From: a virus
Strand: one strand, 5' to 3'
IMG/VR virus record: IMGVR_UViG_3300022686_000021
Coordinates: 1 to 33,774 of that record
Length of the DNA: 33,774 nt
The translations under genes were made by a program, and so were the position numbers. Position 1 is the stretch's first letter, and the number at the start of each line of letters is the position of its first letter. This document shows positions 3,233 through 31,473 of this stretch, piece after piece. The notes beneath the pieces are model-generated. The model was not told where the DNA came from, did not search any database, and saw only the letters and a list, made by a program, of their open reading frames with translations.

Positions 3233-3774
3233 GAACGAAGGCTCTGCTATTCTGTGGCGTGCTGGCACTATTTATTATTCGCGTTTATTTCCCCTGGCTG
3301 CCGGTAGACGGTGGCCGCCCCAATGCCGGACGCGGCACCCTGCCGCCGATAGTCCGCCCCGCGCCCGCAGAGGCAGAGATAATCCGCCACATGCAAGACC
3401 ACCCGGACCAGGGCAGACCGACGCTCATTGTCCACGGGACATTGATGCAGGTAGCGGAGGCCCACGCCGCGGACATGGCGGAACGCGGCTATTTCGACCA
3501 CATCAACCCGGATGGGGTCAACGCCAACGGGCGGGTGATAGACGCGGGATATGCGCTGCCCTACCCGCGCGATGCCAACAACATAGAGAGCATCGCCGGG
3601 GGATATGCCACCGCGCAGGCGGCATGGGATGCGTGGATGGACTCAGACGCGCACCGGGCGCATTTGCTCGCGGAGGATGATTTTTTCGCGGCTCAGATAT
3701 ACGTGGGTGTGGGGTATGTGTACGTGGAGGGCAGCGAGTACGGGCATTATTGGGTGGTCGTGACCGCGCCATAA
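3229..3774 (+). CDS. Membrane-anchored CAP (SCP-like) domain protein
   Basis: The 181-residue product begins with a hydrophobic signal-anchor (residues about 5-20). It is followed by a CAP/SCP1-type domain from about residue 48, with the family signature around HAADMAERGYFDHINPDG (residues about 83-100), a middle NNIESIAGGYATAQAAWDAWMDS block and a C-terminal YGHYWVVV strand. CAP proteins are secreted, cysteine-rich-secretory-like proteins. In bacteria they often occur next to cell-wall genes, and their biochemical activity is mostly unknown. The start is the GTG in a GTGA overlap. Its place at the end of the tail genes suggests a virion or cell-envelope role, for example at entry or lysis. 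No lysozyme or amidase is seen in the window, so it could belong to the lysis set, but that is inference. Confidence 0.78.
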   Translation: MRTKALLFCGVLALFIIRVYFPWLPVDGGRPNAGRGTLPPIVRPAPAEAEIIRHMQDHPDQGRPTLIVHGTLMQVAEAHAADMAERGYFDHINPDGVNANGRVIDAGYALPYPRDANNIESIAGGYATAQAAWDAWMDSDAHRAHLLAEDDFFAAQIYVGVGYVYVEGSEYGHYWVVVTAP

Positions 3775-3778
3775 GCAA

Positions 3779-3804
3779 CAAAAAACCCGCCACGATGGAC
3801 GGGT
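3779..3804 (-). terminator. Intrinsic terminator of the minus-strand FtsK-HNH operon
   Basis: Read on the minus strand, a stem of ACCCG(t)CC with GGCGGGT (one bulged base, 5-nt loop) is followed by six T. It sits 23 bases after the stop of the last gene of the minus operon, between convergent gene sets. It has no T-run on the plus strand. Confidence 0.75.
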
Positions 3805-3826
3805 GTATTGGTGGAACGCCGGTGCA

Positions 3827-4687
3827 TTAGCCTAGCACCTCCACGCCGTTCCCGTTGCGGTGGATGGTGCCTTCCGATTCGAGCGCCGTCAGGTCGTTGT
3901 ACACCGTTCCGCGACTGACACCCAACTCGGTCGCCAACTGTGTAACGCCGGGGTCGCCTCTGTTCAATACGATTTGTACAATGCGCTGACGGCGCTGTTC
4001 AACGTCGGTCTGACGCTGGGCGTTTATTTCGTCCAGTTTATTACTGTCAGAACGTGTTTTGACGCTCAGTTCAGCGTCAGCCTGTACAGGTTTCGTCTGT
4101 TCAGTGTTCACCCGGCTTTGTTCATCGTTGGACAGCGTGCTGTGCATCTCCGCCATAACATGACGCACTTGCAAGCTGACAATTTCCTTGACGCGCCGCT
4201 CCACGTATTCCCGCGCTTCGCTCACGTCAATGTCATCCAGTGCATCCGCCATCGCTTCGCCGATGCGGTCCCGCGTGCGGTCGGTCGCCTCAATGATTTT
4301 CGTCCGCCGCATGGCCGCGCTGTAGTAGCTGACCGATACCGCAAGTAGCGCCTCGCAGAATATCGGAAACCCATAGCCCATGATGATAGCCACCGCGCGC
4401 GGCATGTGCCGATTGTAGTTGAGGAACTGCACCGTACCCGATAGCAGTGCTGCGCCGATGGAACTCCACAGCAACAGCCAGAACACGAAACCGTGTCGCT
4501 GTATGTCCGTCTTTGACAACGCAATCGAAACCACAATCACCACGCCCCCCACGGCGAAACCGAGCGCGTAGGCCACGCCGGGATTGTGGTCTGCGTGGAC
4601 CAGGAAATCGCCAACATTTATCATGCTGGCAATGGCGAACACGGCCATGATGATATGTGCGGACAGTTCGAGTGTAAGTCGTTTCAT
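3827..4687 (-). CDS. Four-helix membrane protein with C-terminal HTH domain
   Basis: The start at 4687 is chosen because the ATG overlaps the upstream stop (ATGA) and has an AGGAAAG ribosome site. The 286-residue product has about four membrane helices in the first 130 residues (for example ALGFAVGGVVIVVSIAL and AIIMGYGFPIFCEALLAVSV). A charged linker with coiled-coil character follows (about 140-225). The C-terminus is a winged-helix/HTH of the type QLATELGVSRGTVYNDLTAL (about 256-275). A membrane sensor or anchor with a DNA-binding head is the simplest reading. The neighbouring FtsK-like ATPase recalls the Tra/Spd pairs of actinobacterial plasmids, where small membrane proteins accompany an FtsK-type translocase. 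That parallel is inference. It is the last gene of the operon. Confidence 0.75.
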   Translation of the reverse strand: MKRLTLELSAHIIMAVFAIASMINVGDFLVHADHNPGVAYALGFAVGGVVIVVSIALSKTDIQRHGFVFWLLLWSSIGAALLSGTVQFLNYNRHMPRAVAIIMGYGFPIFCEALLAVSVSYYSAAMRRTKIIEATDRTRDRIGEAMADALDDIDVSEAREYVERRVKEIVSLQVRHVMAEMHSTLSNDEQSRVNTEQTKPVQADAELSVKTRSDSNKLDEINAQRQTDVEQRRQRIVQIVLNRGDPGVTQLATELGVSRGTVYNDLTALESEGTIHRNGNGVEVLG

Positions 4688-5606: not shown

Positions 5607-7657
5607 CAGTCACCGCCTTCCGTTTGGTTTATTTTGCCTAATACGTGGTTATAGAGGGCGCCCCCCTCGTCAATGTACCGCTCAATCGTCTTTTTCTGGT
5701 GGCTGCCCTTGTTGCCGAGTGCGATTTCCGCAATGGTGGTTGGAGCCATTCGGAAAAATCGATGCGCTGCATAGATGCGCATTTTGGCCCAGGCATCCGG
5801 CGCATACTGGCCGCCAACTTTCGGGATGATAGGCACCCGCCCATCTAGCTCCATTAGCTGCGACACCAGGAACGCCACATCCCCCATTGCACCTTTGCGT
5901 TGGTTGCAGCGGGCGCACGCCTGCACCAGATTGTCAAGCGCGGTGGCTCCACCCTTTGACCACGGCTGCACGTGGTCGATATGCCACGCTTGCCCGGTGG
6001 GGTCTGTGCCGTTTCCTTCCCCGTTGCAGTAGGCGCAAATATTTTTGTCGCGTGCTATCACCTGCCGCCGCAAATCGTCTGGTATGTGGCGTGTAGAGGC
6101 GTCTACACTTTCGGTGTACCCGTTGCCGTTGGTGTAGGCGGCGGTGTAGTCGTTTCTCTCCTGTGGTGTAGTCTGCGCCGCTGGTGTAGGTCCGCCCCTA
6201 CTATTGTGTTCGTGTCTGTTTACACCTGTCGGTTGATTCGTGGTTTTTGTTCCTGCAATTTCTGTTACATGTTCGGGCTTTGCCCATACGTTAGTGAGTA
6301 GTTTTGGGTTCGTTCCGAACGTGGTGATAATGGATTCTTTGCGCTCGCGCGGGATGGCTAGTGCTTTCGCCTCGTGCGTGTCGAGTCCGAGGGAGCGGGC
6401 GTATTCTCCGAGTCCGCCGCCTGTGTTGGTGACAATGCGACAGTTGGCGCTTGCCATGATGGTTGTACCCAATGGCCCCATGCCGCCATCCATGGTGGGT
6501 CGGTGCGTGATGATTATGAGATAGGTTTGGCCGCCTGCACCGGCCACGGCTAGGTCAGCCACGAGCTTAGCCGCTCGCTTCCATCCGTCTTGGTTGGTGA
6601 GTCGTGACAGATCGTCAACGTATACAATTCGGCTTGCGTGCGTGCCAGGTGCATCTTCGGCTGTACCGTCTACCGTATCAGCCCATACGCGTTCGAGCAT
6701 GTCGGCAATGCCATTGGCGTCGTTGAATACATGTTCTCGGCATTGCGGCGCCCGAACGAATGCCCCCCAGTGCTTCGGGCGTGCCGCTGCCACGTAGAAC
6801 TCCACACGGTCGGGCGGATTCGCGCCCATGATGCTGGCCCCGACACCTAAGCCTAGCCCGGTTTTTCCACTGCGTTGGCCACCAATGATGGTCACAACGC
6901 CCGTGTGTGCAAAATCAATGTAAATAGGATTATCCTCGATATCTATACCCGCGAGCGCGTAGATGTCGGCATCCTCCCGGTCGTGGTGCGTCAATGGTAC
7001 ACCCGGCTTAAATAGACGCTGTACATGTGGGCGTAGAATGTTGGTACTCGGCGGCTCAACCGGCAATCGTACACGCACGTTGATGATACCGTCATCCACT
7101 GTGACCGCGGTCTGTCTTGCCTTGGCTTTCATCGCTTCATTAGGTGCCATGCCCACCAGATGGTCGGAGAGCGCCGGTTTGAATAGCTCGGCTGCTATTT
7201 TCTCATGCACCGGAAGGCACAGACCGCCAGTCAGGTACAATGGAATTTTGAGCGTTGACGAGTACCACACCGGCTTGCCCGGCTTTAGGTCGAAGCGCCC
7301 GTCCGTGATGCGATAGGCTTTCGACACGACTTCCCGCCATGTCTCCGCAATGATGCGCATGGCCTCCGCCTCAAATTGTTGGCGAGGCGATAGCTGGCGC
7401 GACTGTGCCACTGGCAATGGATCGGGCGCGGGTGGCTGCGCTTCGATGCGACGAACTGGCACGTTGGCAGACGAGCGCACAACCGGAGTCGGGGCCGGGG
7501 GCCGGTGGCGTAGGAATACCACCCACGCCAGCCCCCAGGCCACCATAACCAGACCAGACAGCCAGGGCAGCTTGTTATAGTGGTACGTCTCTACCTCTAG
7601 TAGAGTCATACCCAGGATGGCGAATACGCCGCAGGTGAAAATGATTTTTTCTGCCAT
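5606..7657 (-). CDS. FtsK/HerA-like membrane ATPase fused to HNH endonuclease
   Basis: The product is 683 residues. Two membrane helices lie at about 3-20 and 32-49, followed by a Pro-rich linker. A P-loop ATPase domain (about 215-465) has Walker A GGQRSGKT at 259-266 and Walker B RIVYVDDL at 343-350, with a THRP segment after it, as in FtsK/SpoIIIE/TraB-type DNA translocases. After a polar linker (470-525) comes an HNH domain: CAYC at 541-544, HIDH at 559-562, N576 and CARC at 581-584 (two Zn-binding pairs plus the catalytic His). The last 90 residues are helical. FtsK-family motors pump duplex DNA. A fused nuclease would couple translocation to cutting. The phage already has a terminase, so this is an extra DNA motor. 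SD GGGAG is 10 bases before the ATG. Confidence 0.85.
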   Translation of the reverse strand: MAEKIIFTCGVFAILGMTLLEVETYHYNKLPWLSGLVMVAWGLAWVVFLRHRPPAPTPVVRSSANVPVRRIEAQPPAPDPLPVAQSRQLSPRQQFEAEAMRIIAETWREVVSKAYRITDGRFDLKPGKPVWYSSTLKIPLYLTGGLCLPVHEKIAAELFKPALSDHLVGMAPNEAMKAKARQTAVTVDDGIINVRVRLPVEPPSTNILRPHVQRLFKPGVPLTHHDREDADIYALAGIDIEDNPIYIDFAHTGVVTIIGGQRSGKTGLGLGVGASIMGANPPDRVEFYVAAARPKHWGAFVRAPQCREHVFNDANGIADMLERVWADTVDGTAEDAPGTHASRIVYVDDLSRLTNQDGWKRAAKLVADLAVAGAGGQTYLIIITHRPTMDGGMGPLGTTIMASANCRIVTNTGGGLGEYARSLGLDTHEAKALAIPRERKESIITTFGTNPKLLTNVWAKPEHVTEIAGTKTTNQPTGVNRHEHNSRGGPTPAAQTTPQERNDYTAAYTNGNGYTESVDASTRHIPDDLRRQVIARDKNICAYCNGEGNGTDPTGQAWHIDHVQPWSKGGATALDNLVQACARCNQRKGAMGDVAFLVSQLMELDGRVPIIPKVGGQYAPDAWAKMRIYAAHRFFRMAPTTIAEIALGNKGSHQKKTIERYIDEGGALYNHVLGKINQTEGGD

Positions 7658-7671
7658 GACTGTCTGTCTCC

Positions 7672-7884
7672 CTATCCGAATACTCCGTCAATTTCACCGT
7701 TGGCGAGTAGCGTATCGAAATGCGTTTCCGCCATCAGCCGCTTTTCGTCGTCAGTCATTAACTGCTGTTCATCGCCGCCTAGGATTTTCTCGGTCAGTTG
7801 GTCCGCCCGCGCGTCTTTCTGCTGCGGCGAGCGGGTTGGCTCGGTCAATCGTGCTGCTTTGTGTAGTCTGTCTCGTCTGCTCAT
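7672..7884 (-). CDS. Small acidic protein heading the FtsK-HNH operon
   Basis: The start at 7884 (ATG with GGAG nearby) is preferred over a GTG at 7911, which lies inside a terminator stem. The 70-residue product (MSRRDRLHKAARL at the start, EKILGGDEQQLMTDDEKR in the middle) is helical and charged, with no recognised domain. It lies 14 bases before the FtsK-like gene. Its ribosome site lies directly after the U-run of the terminator hairpin at 7901-7930, so its expression probably depends on read-through or on a promoter not recognised here. Confidence 0.55.
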   Translation of the reverse strand: MSRRDRLHKAARLTEPTRSPQQKDARADQLTEKILGGDEQQLMTDDEKRLMAETHFDTLLANGEIDGVFG

Positions 7885-21052: not shown

Positions 21053-21082
21053 AGTATATCATAGGTATATACTGTATGTCAA
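21053..21082 (-). promoter_or_regulatory. Promoter of the RHH gene at 21008 with operator-like site
   Basis: On the minus strand TTGACA (21077-21082) and TATACT (21053-21058) are 18 bases apart. The spacer holds GTATATAC (21065-21072), also found in the facing promoter. Confidence 0.8.
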
Positions 21083-21123
21083 TGGTCAATACTGCGAGTT
21101 TTCATTTTGGTATATTTTGGGTA

Positions 21124-21152
21124 TTGACAAGGTATATACTTTGTGGTATACT
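21124..21152 (+). promoter_or_regulatory. Promoter of the Sak4-like recombination operon with operator-like site
   Basis: TTGACA (21124-21129) and TATACT (21147-21152) are exactly 17 bases apart. The palindrome GTATATAC (21132-21139) lies between them. Predicted start is about 21159, giving a 110-base leader. Confidence 0.9.
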
Positions 21153-22583: not shown

Positions 22584-22749
22584 CGCCGCACGATTGACCG
22601 AGCTACTGAGCCGCCCGCTGCTGCGCGACGAAGCCGACGAACTGGTCAAACTCGCGCGGCGGCTGGGCGTGACGCTCGAATGGAGTCATTGCGACATGTT
22701 CGGGCGGTGGCAGGATGGGCGGAAACCGAGAAACGGAGATGAACCATGA
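22552..22749 (+). CDS. Small basic protein of unknown function
   Basis: The product is 65 residues: a basic N-terminus (PPKRKPSQPDAARL), a helix (LRDEADELVKLARRLGV) and WSHCDMFGRWQDGRK. It overlaps the Sak4-like gene by 32 bases and the next gene by 4 bases (ATGA). A weak GGAG lies 10 bases upstream. It could bind DNA; no family is recognised. Confidence 0.6.
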   Translation: MPPKRKPSQPDAARLTELLSRPLLRDEADELVKLARRLGVTLEWSHCDMFGRWQDGRKPRNGDEP

Positions 22750-22997
22750 ACCGATGGAATAGCAAAATCAAAATCAAGCACCTGTTCACCGAGGACGAGG
22801 ACCATGAAAGCGTGCAGGAGAGCATGAATGCGATTGCTGATGTGGTGCGAAATCACTCTGCATTCGTGCTGTTTGACACGAAAAATTTCCGCAATATTCC
22901 GCGCGGCGACGACGTACTTGGTCCGACAGACTACGCCAATCGCCTGCTGGATAGACTGTACGACTTTGCGGACGAACACCGGATTTGGGTTAAGTAA
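22746..22997 (+). CDS. Small alpha/beta protein of unknown function
   Basis: The product is 83 residues: KIKIKHLFTEDEDHES at the N-terminus, a helix with MNAIADVVRNHSAFVLF, and a C-terminal helix NRLLDRLYDFADEHRIWV. The regular hydrophobic pattern says it is a real folded protein. No family is recognised. It starts in an ATGA overlap with the preceding gene and has GGAGATGA upstream. Confidence 0.65.
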   Translation: MNRWNSKIKIKHLFTEDEDHESVQESMNAIADVVRNHSAFVLFDTKNFRNIPRGDDVLGPTDYANRLLDRLYDFADEHRIWVK

Positions 22998-23029
22998 ACG
23001 CCGCTTTATTTACTGAGGACGTACCAATT

Positions 23030-23494
23030 ATGAACTGGCTTGATTGTCATTGGCTACCGATAAAGGATGGAGATCCGCGAGCTGCGGCATTGTACCGCCG
23101 ACACTACAGCTGCTACCAGTACGCGGACGGTCGGCGCTCGCAGCACGGATACCGCAACCGATTTTTGATTTGTGGACCTGGCGAAAAAATGTTGCTGATG
23201 ACAATCAAATGCGATGCGCTCTTTGTGTGGCGCAAATTCATTGACAAAAGCGGCCAGCGGGGAGTCAATTGTGCAGTATTTCGCAACGAATCCGATGCGT
23301 TAAGTAGTGAGTTGATTTTGGAGGCTGAGCAGCTGGCTTGGAGACGTTGGCCGGGAGAACGATTGTACACCTATGTAGATGCGTTTGCCATAAAATCAGA
23401 TAATCCAGGGTACTGTTATAAGTGCGCTGGTTGGCGCGAGTGTGGCCGCACGCAGGCTCGCGGTCTGATTATTCTGGAGAAGTATCCAGAATAG
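23030..23494 (+). CDS. GNAT-fold-like protein, resembling Mom-type DNA modification proteins
   Basis: The product is 154 residues. The pattern AAALYRRHYSCYQYADGRR, FLICGPGEKMLLMTI, ALFVWRKF and the C-terminal LYTYVDAFAIKSDNPGYCYK then AGWRECGRTQARGLIILE follows a phage/bacterial family with an acetyltransferase-like (GNAT) layout. The last part looks like the end of phage Mu Mom, a GNAT-fold protein that modifies adenines against restriction. That resemblance is my reading, not a search result. Four Cys are clustered in the last 35 residues. The base composition is slightly richer in A+T than the neighbours. If Mom-like, it adds to the ParB/methyltransferase pair as host-defence evasion. Confidence 0.55.
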   Translation: MNWLDCHWLPIKDGDPRAAALYRRHYSCYQYADGRRSQHGYRNRFLICGPGEKMLLMTIKCDALFVWRKFIDKSGQRGVNCAVFRNESDALSSELILEAEQLAWRRWPGERLYTYVDAFAIKSDNPGYCYKCAGWRECGRTQARGLIILEKYPE

Positions 23495-23557
23495 GTTGAT
23501 TAAATAGATAATATATAAATCACTTATGAGAATGGCGATTCTCGGAAGGAGTGACCG

Positions 23558-23776
23558 ATGGATGTGAGCAATGAAACTCTTTGCGCACGGCTGGACGAAC
23601 TTGCGACCGCAGTTTCCAAAGGCCGGGATGCAATTCTGCGGGAGTTTTACATGAGCATTCCGGCGCGTCCTGACCGCGATGCAGATTTGGTTTTAGCGTT
23701 AGCCGCCAAGCGCATCAAAGAGATGGAGCGCACCATTGCACTCATGGAATCCGAGTCGATGGACGGCCGGAGATGA
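23558..23776 (+). CDS. Small helical protein of unknown function
   Basis: The product is 72 residues, fully helical by pattern (LCARLDELATAVSKGRDAIL, VLALAAKRIKEMERTIALME). A strong AAGGAG site stands 8 bases before ATG 23558. It may be a coiled-coil accessory protein. No family is recognised. Confidence 0.65.
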   Translation: MDVSNETLCARLDELATAVSKGRDAILREFYMSIPARPDRDADLVLALAAKRIKEMERTIALMESESMDGRR

Positions 23777-23779
23777 ATT

Positions 23780-23971
23780 ATGAGAACAATTACGGCGAAC
23801 GACGATCTTGATGAGATGCCGGACGGTTGGTACATCGCAGGTGAGCGTTTGACAACCGAGCCGCGCGGATTGATGGTAGACGCTGGGGAACGCGTCTACG
23901 TGTGGAGCGGGTGGATCTGCGAGGACGAACAAGGTGCGGAGCGTCTTAGTCATAGCCTGGCGCTTGACTGA
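23780..23971 (+). CDS. Small protein of unknown function
   Basis: The product is 63 residues, rich in strands and aromatics (DGWYIAGERLTTEPRG, VYVWSGWICEDEQ). It starts 3 bases after the previous stop. It is the last gene of this operon. No intrinsic terminator was recognised between it and the late promoter; only a 6-bp inverted repeat without T-run (CCTAAC/GTTAGG, about 23980-24005). Confidence 0.6.
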   Translation: MRTITANDDLDEMPDGWYIAGERLTTEPRGLMVDAGERVYVWSGWICEDEQGAERLSHSLALD

Positions 23972-24021: not shown

Positions 24022-24078
24022 GTACACGTGTGCGCTTCGAGAGCGTAGGTTGACGCCCCGCGCGCACTCGTGTACAAT
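24022..24078 (+). promoter_or_regulatory. Late promoter with flanking inverted repeat
   Basis: TTGACG (24050-24055) and TACAAT (24073-24078) are 17 bases apart. A 14-base inverted repeat (24022-24035 against 24062-24075, one mismatch) places one arm upstream of -35 and the other across the spacer and -10, as expected for a repressor that loops or clamps the promoter. Start is predicted near 24085. Confidence 0.82.
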
Positions 24079-24090
24079 AAAACCCAATAT

Positions 24091-24218
24091 ACCCATGCCG
24101 AGGTCAGTTGCCACGAATAAAAGGTGACCGACCTTTGCATGGGTTTTTTATTTGTGGCAACTGACCTCGACACCCACTAAGGGGACCACCCACCCCCCTG
24201 GGAGAGTCGAGGTTTTTT
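24091..24218 (+). promoter_or_regulatory. Leader switch: two terminators and an overlapping 24-bp antiterminator hairpin
   Basis: Terminator 1: 24091-24098 pairs with 24137-24144 around an inner hairpin (24120-24125/24131-24136) and is followed by TTTTTATTT. Competing hairpin: 24099-24122 pairs with 24146-24169, 24 bp with a single G-U. It buries the T-run of terminator 1 and the 5' arm of terminator 2. Terminator 2: CCTCGAC (24165-24171) pairs with GTCGAGG (24206-24212), followed by six T. The elements lie between the late promoter and the CHAT-like gene at 24231, so they can decide whether the late operon is read. Confidence 0.8.
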
Positions 24219-24230
24219 GATTGGTAGCGG

Positions 24231-24992
24231 ATGAATATTTTGATTGTCGCGCCATTCCATGAGGATTTGCCGAATATTCCCGACGAAGCGGCCTCGCTTC
24301 GCAACGCTATTGATGGACGCTTGGTGCAAGGGGATGTGCGAGAGCGAGACATCATCGACGCCATCGACGATGGGCCATTTGACGGCATTTGGTTTGCGAC
24401 ACATGGCGACACGACCGGCGTGTGGCTGAGTGGCGGGGAACGCCTAGACGCGCACGCATTGTCGCAGTATATTTCGTCCTCTGGTGCGCGCTGGATATTC
24501 CTCAACTCGTGCGAGTCTGCATCTCTGGTGGATACAATTCGCGCCACGACCATCGCTGACGTCATTGCCACTAGTTCGCGGATACTGGATGCGACCGCAT
24601 GGCGCACGGCGCGACTGTTCGCGCAGGCGCTAGCAACGACGGGGAATGTGCGTCAGGCATTGGCGAAGGCTGCCCCGGATGGGGCCAACGCATATAGATT
24701 CTGGGCAAATCGGTCTGGGATGGGTGGGACTGGCGTGAGCGATTCACAATTAGATGCACGACTGGCTCGGCTAGAGGCACAAATGGACCGCATGGAGCAG
24801 ACCAGCCAGGTAAGGCAAGAGATGCTCTCGCGGCTGGAGCGCGTTGTAGAGCGGTTGAGCTACGCCATTTATGGCGATGCCGCATCGCAGCAAATCGGGC
24901 TGCTTCGCTGGTTTCGGTGGGGAAGCCTGGGCACCGCATTCAATACGATACTGTTGGCAGTTATCGCGTACCGTATTTTTTTTGGAGGATAA
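24231..24992 (+). CDS. CHAT/caspase-like protease with coiled coil and C-terminal membrane anchor
   Basis: The product is 253 residues. Residues 1-160 follow the CHAT (caspase HetF-associated) fold: a NILIVAP first strand, FDGIWFATHGD with the catalytic His58, a GVWLSGGERLDAHALSQYI hairpin/helix, WIFLNSCES with the catalytic Cys94, and DVIATSSRILDATAWR. A helical segment (about 172-213) with heptad-like Leu/Met spacing is a likely coiled coil. One membrane helix ends the protein (about 233-250). CHAT proteases cleave proteins; bacterial ones serve as death or defence effectors. Here the gene is first in the phage late operon, behind a terminator leader, and followed by a holin-size membrane protein, so a role in host takeover, lysis timing or exclusion of other phages is possible. 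Ribosome site is weak. Confidence 0.82.
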   Translation: MNILIVAPFHEDLPNIPDEAASLRNAIDGRLVQGDVRERDIIDAIDDGPFDGIWFATHGDTTGVWLSGGERLDAHALSQYISSSGARWIFLNSCESASLVDTIRATTIADVIATSSRILDATAWRTARLFAQALATTGNVRQALAKAAPDGANAYRFWANRSGMGGTGVSDSQLDARLARLEAQMDRMEQTSQVRQEMLSRLERVVERLSYAIYGDAASQQIGLLRWFRWGSLGTAFNTILLAVIAYRIFFGG

Positions 24993-31430: not shown

Positions 31431-31473
31431 GAGCGCCATAGTCCCTTCGGGGATTGTGGCGCTCTTTTTGTTT
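31431..31473 (+). terminator. Intrinsic terminator with UUCG tetraloop just before the portal start
   Basis: A continuous 15-bp stem (31431-31445 with 31450-31464, two G-U pairs valid on the plus strand) closes on TTCG and is followed by TTTTTGTTT. The portal start codon lies 13 bases beyond the T-run. A second copy of the first stem bases (GAGCGCCA, 31422-31429) precedes it and could pair instead. Confidence 0.9.

Follow-up and report, generated by a model that had tools for sequence, protein, structure and literature searches.

The virus record IMGVR_UViG_3300022686_000021, which was analysed over its whole length of 33,774 bases (the window in the following), contains a gene for a CHAT-domain protein, a caspase-like peptidase, and in front of it on the plus strand a leader (24050–24230) in which one RNA segment has two alternative partners. 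On balance it is probable that the leader RNA is a bistable transcription attenuator ahead of this protease gene. The layout of the leader is found again in a second phage, where its pairing is conserved by compensatory changes, the two mutually exclusive states have near-equal computed energies in both phages, and the pattern of G.U pairs is specific for the plus strand. The order of folding, an OFF state as the default and the effect of blocking one segment are predictions of a folding model.

Segments and hairpins of the leader

The elements of the leader and the gene behind it are the following, H1 and H2 being the two hairpins that precede the gene (bp, base pairs; nt, nucleotides).

24050–24078, plus strand: sigma-70-type promoter TTGACG-17-TACAAT, 10 of 12 consensus matches
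24091–24098, plus strand: segment a, ACCCATGC, pairing over 8 bp with segment a', GCATGGGT, at 24137–24144
24099–24122, plus strand: segment b, CGAGGTCAGTTGCCACGAATAAAA, the 5' arm common to H1 (where its partner is a') and to the helix b:b'
24146–24169, plus strand: segment b', the second and stronger partner of b, forming with it a 24-bp helix of 23 Watson-Crick pairs and one G.U pair; its last five bases belong to the c arm
24165–24171, plus strand: segment c, CCTCGAC, pairing with segment c', GTCGAGG, at 24206–24212
24091–24144, plus strand: hairpin H1, made of the clamp a:a' and a b core (24101–24112 with 24123–24134), with a 10-nt loop
24165–24219, plus strand: H2, a predicted intrinsic terminator with the stacked stems CCTCGAC/GTCGAGG, CCCA/TGGG and GGGG/CCCC followed by TTTTTT
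24231–24992, plus strand: CHAT-domain gene behind the leader (Pfam PF12770, E 1.7e-8)
24022–24035 and 24062–24075: inverted pair of 14-bp sites, the second lying in the promoter spacer and reaching into the –10 element

An earlier note on this DNA had named the six segments a, b, a', b', c and c', and all of them were found at their positions when the sequence was checked. The note had taken a:a' as the first hairpin; these pairs do exist, but they are only the outer clamp of the longer H1. As the promoter lies at 24050–24078, with transcription expected to start near 24085, the RNA should begin with H1. Inside this hairpin 12 bases of b pair with 24123–24134 by nine Watson-Crick pairs and two G.U pairs with one mismatch, which brings H1 to a total of about 20 bp and a computed –31 kcal/mol, reached once a' is made. 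The stretch of H1 that pairs with b repeats b' directly but imperfectly (GGTGACCGACCT versus GGCAACTGACCT), and a' is a weakened repeat, its differences from b' being transitions which mostly yield G.U pairs. From the 12-base pairing inside H1 together with the direct repeat it appears that b chooses between two competing partners, a' first and b' second.

The helix b:b' buries the CCTCG of the c arm, and in the folding model this pairing would be the antiterminator. T-runs are located in the window at about 24144–24149 and 24213–24218, and H1, which is followed by TTTTTT, may also terminate. The leader as a whole (24050–24230) is more stable than dinucleotide shuffles (z = –5.2, none of 200 equally stable). 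When b was held constant and the flank and the loop were shuffled, none of 5000 variants reached the stability of H1 (z = –6.8).

In the proposed mechanism H1 would form first and hold b, locked by the a:a' clamp. With b held in H1, b' would stay single-stranded, c could pair with c', and H2 would halt RNA polymerase before the CHAT gene, giving a default OFF state. Anything that occupied or delayed a' or a, be it a ribosome, a protein, a ligand or a second RNA, would leave b to pair with b', and the c arm would be buried. No H2 would then form, and transcription would enter the CHAT gene and the genes which follow it. The design would thus consist of one arm with two near-identical partners, of which the first is weakened by wobbles and clamped, and of two near-equal states.

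Conservation in a related phage

A search with the CHAT protein in phage, plasmid, viral and genome collections yielded only two further contigs, a close relative (viral contig IMGVR 3300023214_000125, L001), the CHAT protein of which is 78% identical to that of the window, and the distant contig 3300038379_000471. Between the window and the close relative the 5' part of the leader has 49% identity and is not confidently alignable, H2 has 78%, and the CHAT coding sequence 74%. The inner sequence of H2 (24165–24219), CACCCA ... AAGGG ... CACCCA ... CCTGGGAGA, is conserved as strongly as the coding region.

Despite the divergent letters of the 5' part every element of the leader is present in the relative. 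A promoter-like TTGCGC-18-TACAAT, read by eye, stands in the same place. H1 is again built with b from other letters, with 21 bp (16 Watson-Crick and five G.U pairs) and a 4-nt loop, and none of 5000 versions with shuffled flanks was equally stable. Here, too, a' departs from b' by transitions, which turn pairs of b into wobbles. The helix b:b' consists of 18 perfect pairs, and H2 has CCTCG in common with b'. In an ungapped comparison all 18 positions of b:b' are paired in both phages, with six two-sided changes, one one-sided change and no broken pair; sliding the register by one to three positions leaves 26–50% paired. The inner stem of H2 changes from GGGG/CCCC in the window to GGAG/CTCC in the relative, and the z score of H2 as a whole is –3.2 in the window (TTTTTT) and –5.0 in the relative (GTTTTTC), both terminators being read from the sequence alone.

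Counted over b:b' and H1 of both phages the plus strand has eight G.U pairs and one mismatch, the minus strand one G.U pair and eight mismatches. This bias argues that the selected molecule is the plus strand RNA made from the promoter. A minus-strand element or a palindrome acting at the level of DNA was considered and rejected, since the pattern of G.U pairs fits only plus strand RNA.

The comparison bears on several claims of the earlier note. The layout of a transcription switch is borne out by the six compensatory changes, and the conservation of b:b' in related phages, which the note had named as a test, holds in the one close relative. Of the proposed tandem terminators both have their T-runs in the window, but what stands behind H1 of the relative is TTTGTGCATTTAATT, without a U-tract. 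For this reason a role of H1 as an upstream terminator would be peculiar to the window, only H2 would be the conserved terminator, and H1 is better read as a device which keeps b from b'. The note had also extended the control to the whole late operon, which is plausible in the window, where TerS, TerL and the portal gene (head and packaging) lie downstream of the leader on the same strand. In the relative, by contrast, the neighbours differ and only the leader and the CHAT gene are kept. Nucleotide homology around the leader spans only about 24165–24988, with different flanking genes on both sides, and the leader and the CHAT gene therefore look like a conserved, cassette-like unit which stays together.

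Two further observations concern the upstream border in the relative. A TnpB-like gene (IS200/IS605 OrfB with a zinc-ribbon end, identified by eye) lies at 6625–7809, shortly upstream of promoter, leader and CHAT gene, and from GCGTAGGTTG, directly before the promoter, the relative is again similar to the window.

The layout is rare. It was defined as a b:b' helix of at least 15 bp, an H1 sharing b, and c:c' followed by a T-run, and both strands of 2.08 megabases of viral loci related via the large terminase or a nuclease were scanned for it. The full layout occurred only in the window and the close relative, and in none of 30 Markov shuffles of the window. A pattern search of all viral contigs for the core of H2 gave only the relative and one chance match in a coding region (L004).

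The CHAT homologue of the distant contig (L168, also G003) has 35–38% identity. It lies behind a strong promoter of its own, TTGACA-17-TAAACT, and a leader of 250 nt (both within 3683–3966) with a fold z score of –7.0, which contains a 19–20-bp hairpin ending in TTTGTTTT with a weak T-rich tail. Structured leaders may thus be general for these CHAT genes, the exact device varying.

Folding model, triggers and alternative explanations

When the energies are calculated up to the last base of the U-run, H1 plus H2 has –59.1 and b:b' –58.3 kcal/mol in the window (a gap of 0.8), and the corresponding values in the relative are –58.8 and –57.0 kcal/mol (a gap of 1.8). The energies of the two states are thus near-equal in both phages though the leader sequences differ. 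A coarse co-transcriptional folding simulation at speeds of 20–100 nt/s, of a kind which the earlier note had suggested, predicted H1 followed by H2, and b:b' without H2 when a' was blocked. In the simulation H1 forms before b' exists and stays undisplaced, and H2 forms next, in 77% of the population in the window at 20 nt/s and in 99% in the relative. With a' blocked b:b' forms once b' is made, and the full stem of H2 is absent. The barrier from H1 to b:b' is at least 22 kcal/mol at all lengths for nested paths, H1 being undisplaced along such paths because the a:a' clamp makes the outer end of b inaccessible. Invasion of H1 by b' through the loop would be possible in the window with its loop of 10 nt and hardly so in the relative with its loop of 4 nt.

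Several triggers were considered and rejected. For a ribosome-mediated trigger a frame of 10 codons (MPRSVATNKR, 24094–24126) is available, but it is without a Shine-Dalgarno sequence and has no counterpart in 7858–7990 of the relative. With temperature the energy gap shifts by less than 3 kcal/mol over 15–65 °C, and the direction of this shift in one phage is opposite to that in the other. When the polymerase speed is varied b:b' stays at or below about 6% at the simulated 20–100 nt/s. A search of Rfam up to E = 1 gave only a chance match to a plant microRNA (E 0.52, 20.8 bits versus a gathering score of 140), and no match of at least 13 nt to the leader or its complement was found elsewhere in the 33.8-kilobase window.

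Some points weigh against the attenuator. The covariation rests on two sequences, with one close relative in the collections searched, and the leader of the distant phage is without this layout, its helices being nested and not exclusive. At 100 nt/s no more than about 15% of the population simulated for the window acquires H2, and b:b' is absent too. The folding model works without pseudoknots, which places the invasion of b' via the loop of H1 outside its scope. No trigger, binding protein or ligand has been identified.

Palindromes of the form GYACACGNGTGYRC stand in or adjoin the promoter spacer of both phages, and the window holds no further perfect copy. In the relative a similar palindrome is found between –35 and –10, at 7832–7853. 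These spacer palindromes are a candidate site of a transcription regulator. They bring to mind lambda Q, the binding site of which is described as lying within the late promoter (PMC6606751). As in the lambda pR'-tR' system, to which the note had likened the leader, an antiterminator protein could be loaded here, with the spacer palindrome as its loading site; H1 and H2 would then be the terminators that it passes, and b:b' would be incidental or only insulate. The late-type genes downstream of the leader would suit such a protein, and an inverted repeat (AGTTTAGC/GCTAAACT, 3689–3711) likewise lies in the promoter spacer of the distant CHAT phage. The six compensatory changes in b:b' and the energy balance of the exclusive states are left unexplained by it, no conserved –10-like pause element is seen after the start site, and no Q-like protein was found, none having been searched for. 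This explanation is unlikely, though foremost among the alternatives. A sensor in H2 is quite unlikely: in this explanation the conserved inside of H2 (CACCCA..AAGGG..CACCCA..CTCCTGGGAG) would do the sensing and b and b' would serve as the expression platform, the leader being a riboswitch or an attenuator to which a protein binds. The 78% identity of H2, compared with 74% of the coding sequence and 49% of the remaining leader, is more constraint than a terminator needs, yet H2 and the gene may merely have stayed linked in one cassette, the Rfam search has no family to offer beyond the plant microRNA, and binding in H2 would add stability to a stop state that in the model is already the default.

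The leader might also be the source of a small RNA, ended at H1 or H2, whose target in trans is this same leader or another phage, as known for IsrK and P4. A short RNA with b would be able to form 24 bp with the b' of a different transcript, the rapid divergence of b, a' and b' with their pairing kept resembles an evolution of specificity, and IsrK sets a precedent for a short terminated isoform acting on a read-through isoform (PMC4825925). In such a short RNA b would be buried by H1, the order of the segments is not P4-like, and elsewhere in the window no complementary site of at least 13 nt exists, which makes this origin very unlikely. The least probable explanation is ordinary insulation, in which strong hairpins block early read-through or give RNase III a place to cut, without any switching. 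Long perfect helices often serve as terminators or as sites of RNase III, and both T-runs of the window look like those of terminators. Neither role needs a choice between H1 and b:b', yet both phages have built this choice anew, at near-equal energies and in a layout absent elsewhere in the 2.08 megabases of related DNA.

We therefore keep to the bistable attenuator. A bolder version of it, which we hold to be an unlikely guess, would see a mobile CHAT cassette with an RNA sensor, the specificity of which lies in the fast-evolving b, a' and b'. A cognate trans RNA or phage protein would capture a', flip the leader to b:b' and release the protease, as might happen upon superinfection or at a lytic set point.

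Gene context and known attenuation systems

The CHAT protein has its His-Gly (H58-G) and Cys (C94) motifs intact, and these are present in all three CHAT homologues aligned; it further contains a coiled coil and a hydrophobic C-terminus. It had no matches among defence systems or in the PDB, and by analogy to the CHAT family it may be toxic. Upstream of the leader none of the genes at 22746–23971 was assigned to a named family by the searches, in which Q models were not searched one by one. Two other regions of the window were observed in passing. Strong promoters stand back to back at 21053–21152 (TTGACA-18-TATACT on the minus strand, TTGACA-17-TATACT on the plus strand), probably as an early divergent control region. 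A 15-bp hairpin at 31431–31464, GAGCGCCATAGTCCC-TTCG-GGGATTGTGGCGCTC followed by TTTTTG directly ahead of the portal gene, is predicted to be a strong terminator within the late region.

To our knowledge only few phage genes stand behind an RNA attenuator without a known ligand. If the present one is confirmed, its natural trigger would reveal when the phage opts to make a caspase-like protease.

With lambda pR'/tR' and Q the leader shares a late-type promoter, a terminator shortly downstream and a palindrome in the promoter spacer. It differs in its exclusive RNA helices, which are kept by covariation, and in that no Q protein has been identified, Q models not having been searched singly. IsrK of the Gifsy-1 prophage is likewise a phage leader with a terminator and two nearly isoenergetic predicted states (–85.66 and –84.21 kcal/mol), located before cell-killing genes (PMC4825925). 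There a short trans isoform regulates the translation of the read-through RNA (PMC4825925), whereas here the choice would be made in cis between terminator and antiterminator, and no trans target was found within the window. The putRNA of HK022 is also an element of nascent phage RNA that influences termination; here a local helix excludes one arm of the terminator. In the CI/seqA-seqB-seqC attenuation of the satellite P4 one segment has two complementary partners and premature termination is the output. These traits would be shared by the present leader, which differs from P4 in the order of segments, in the gene context and in that no trans RNA was identified.

The closest likeness is to an attenuator with terminator, antiterminator and anti-antiterminator, a known class of which the leader would be a variant with a shared first segment. 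Promoter, leader and gene follow each other on one strand, a hairpin with a U-tract is the apparent terminator, and a covarying helix uses one of its arms. As in the trp and his attenuators the leader lies between promoter and gene, three hairpins are available, the middle one being incompatible with the other two, and an upstream default hairpin frees the terminator. In trp and his it is the second segment which is shared (1:2, 2:3, 3:4), whereas here it is the first, b (1:2 or 1:3, then 3:4); here there is no conserved leader peptide with control codons, and the partners of b are imperfect direct repeats of each other.
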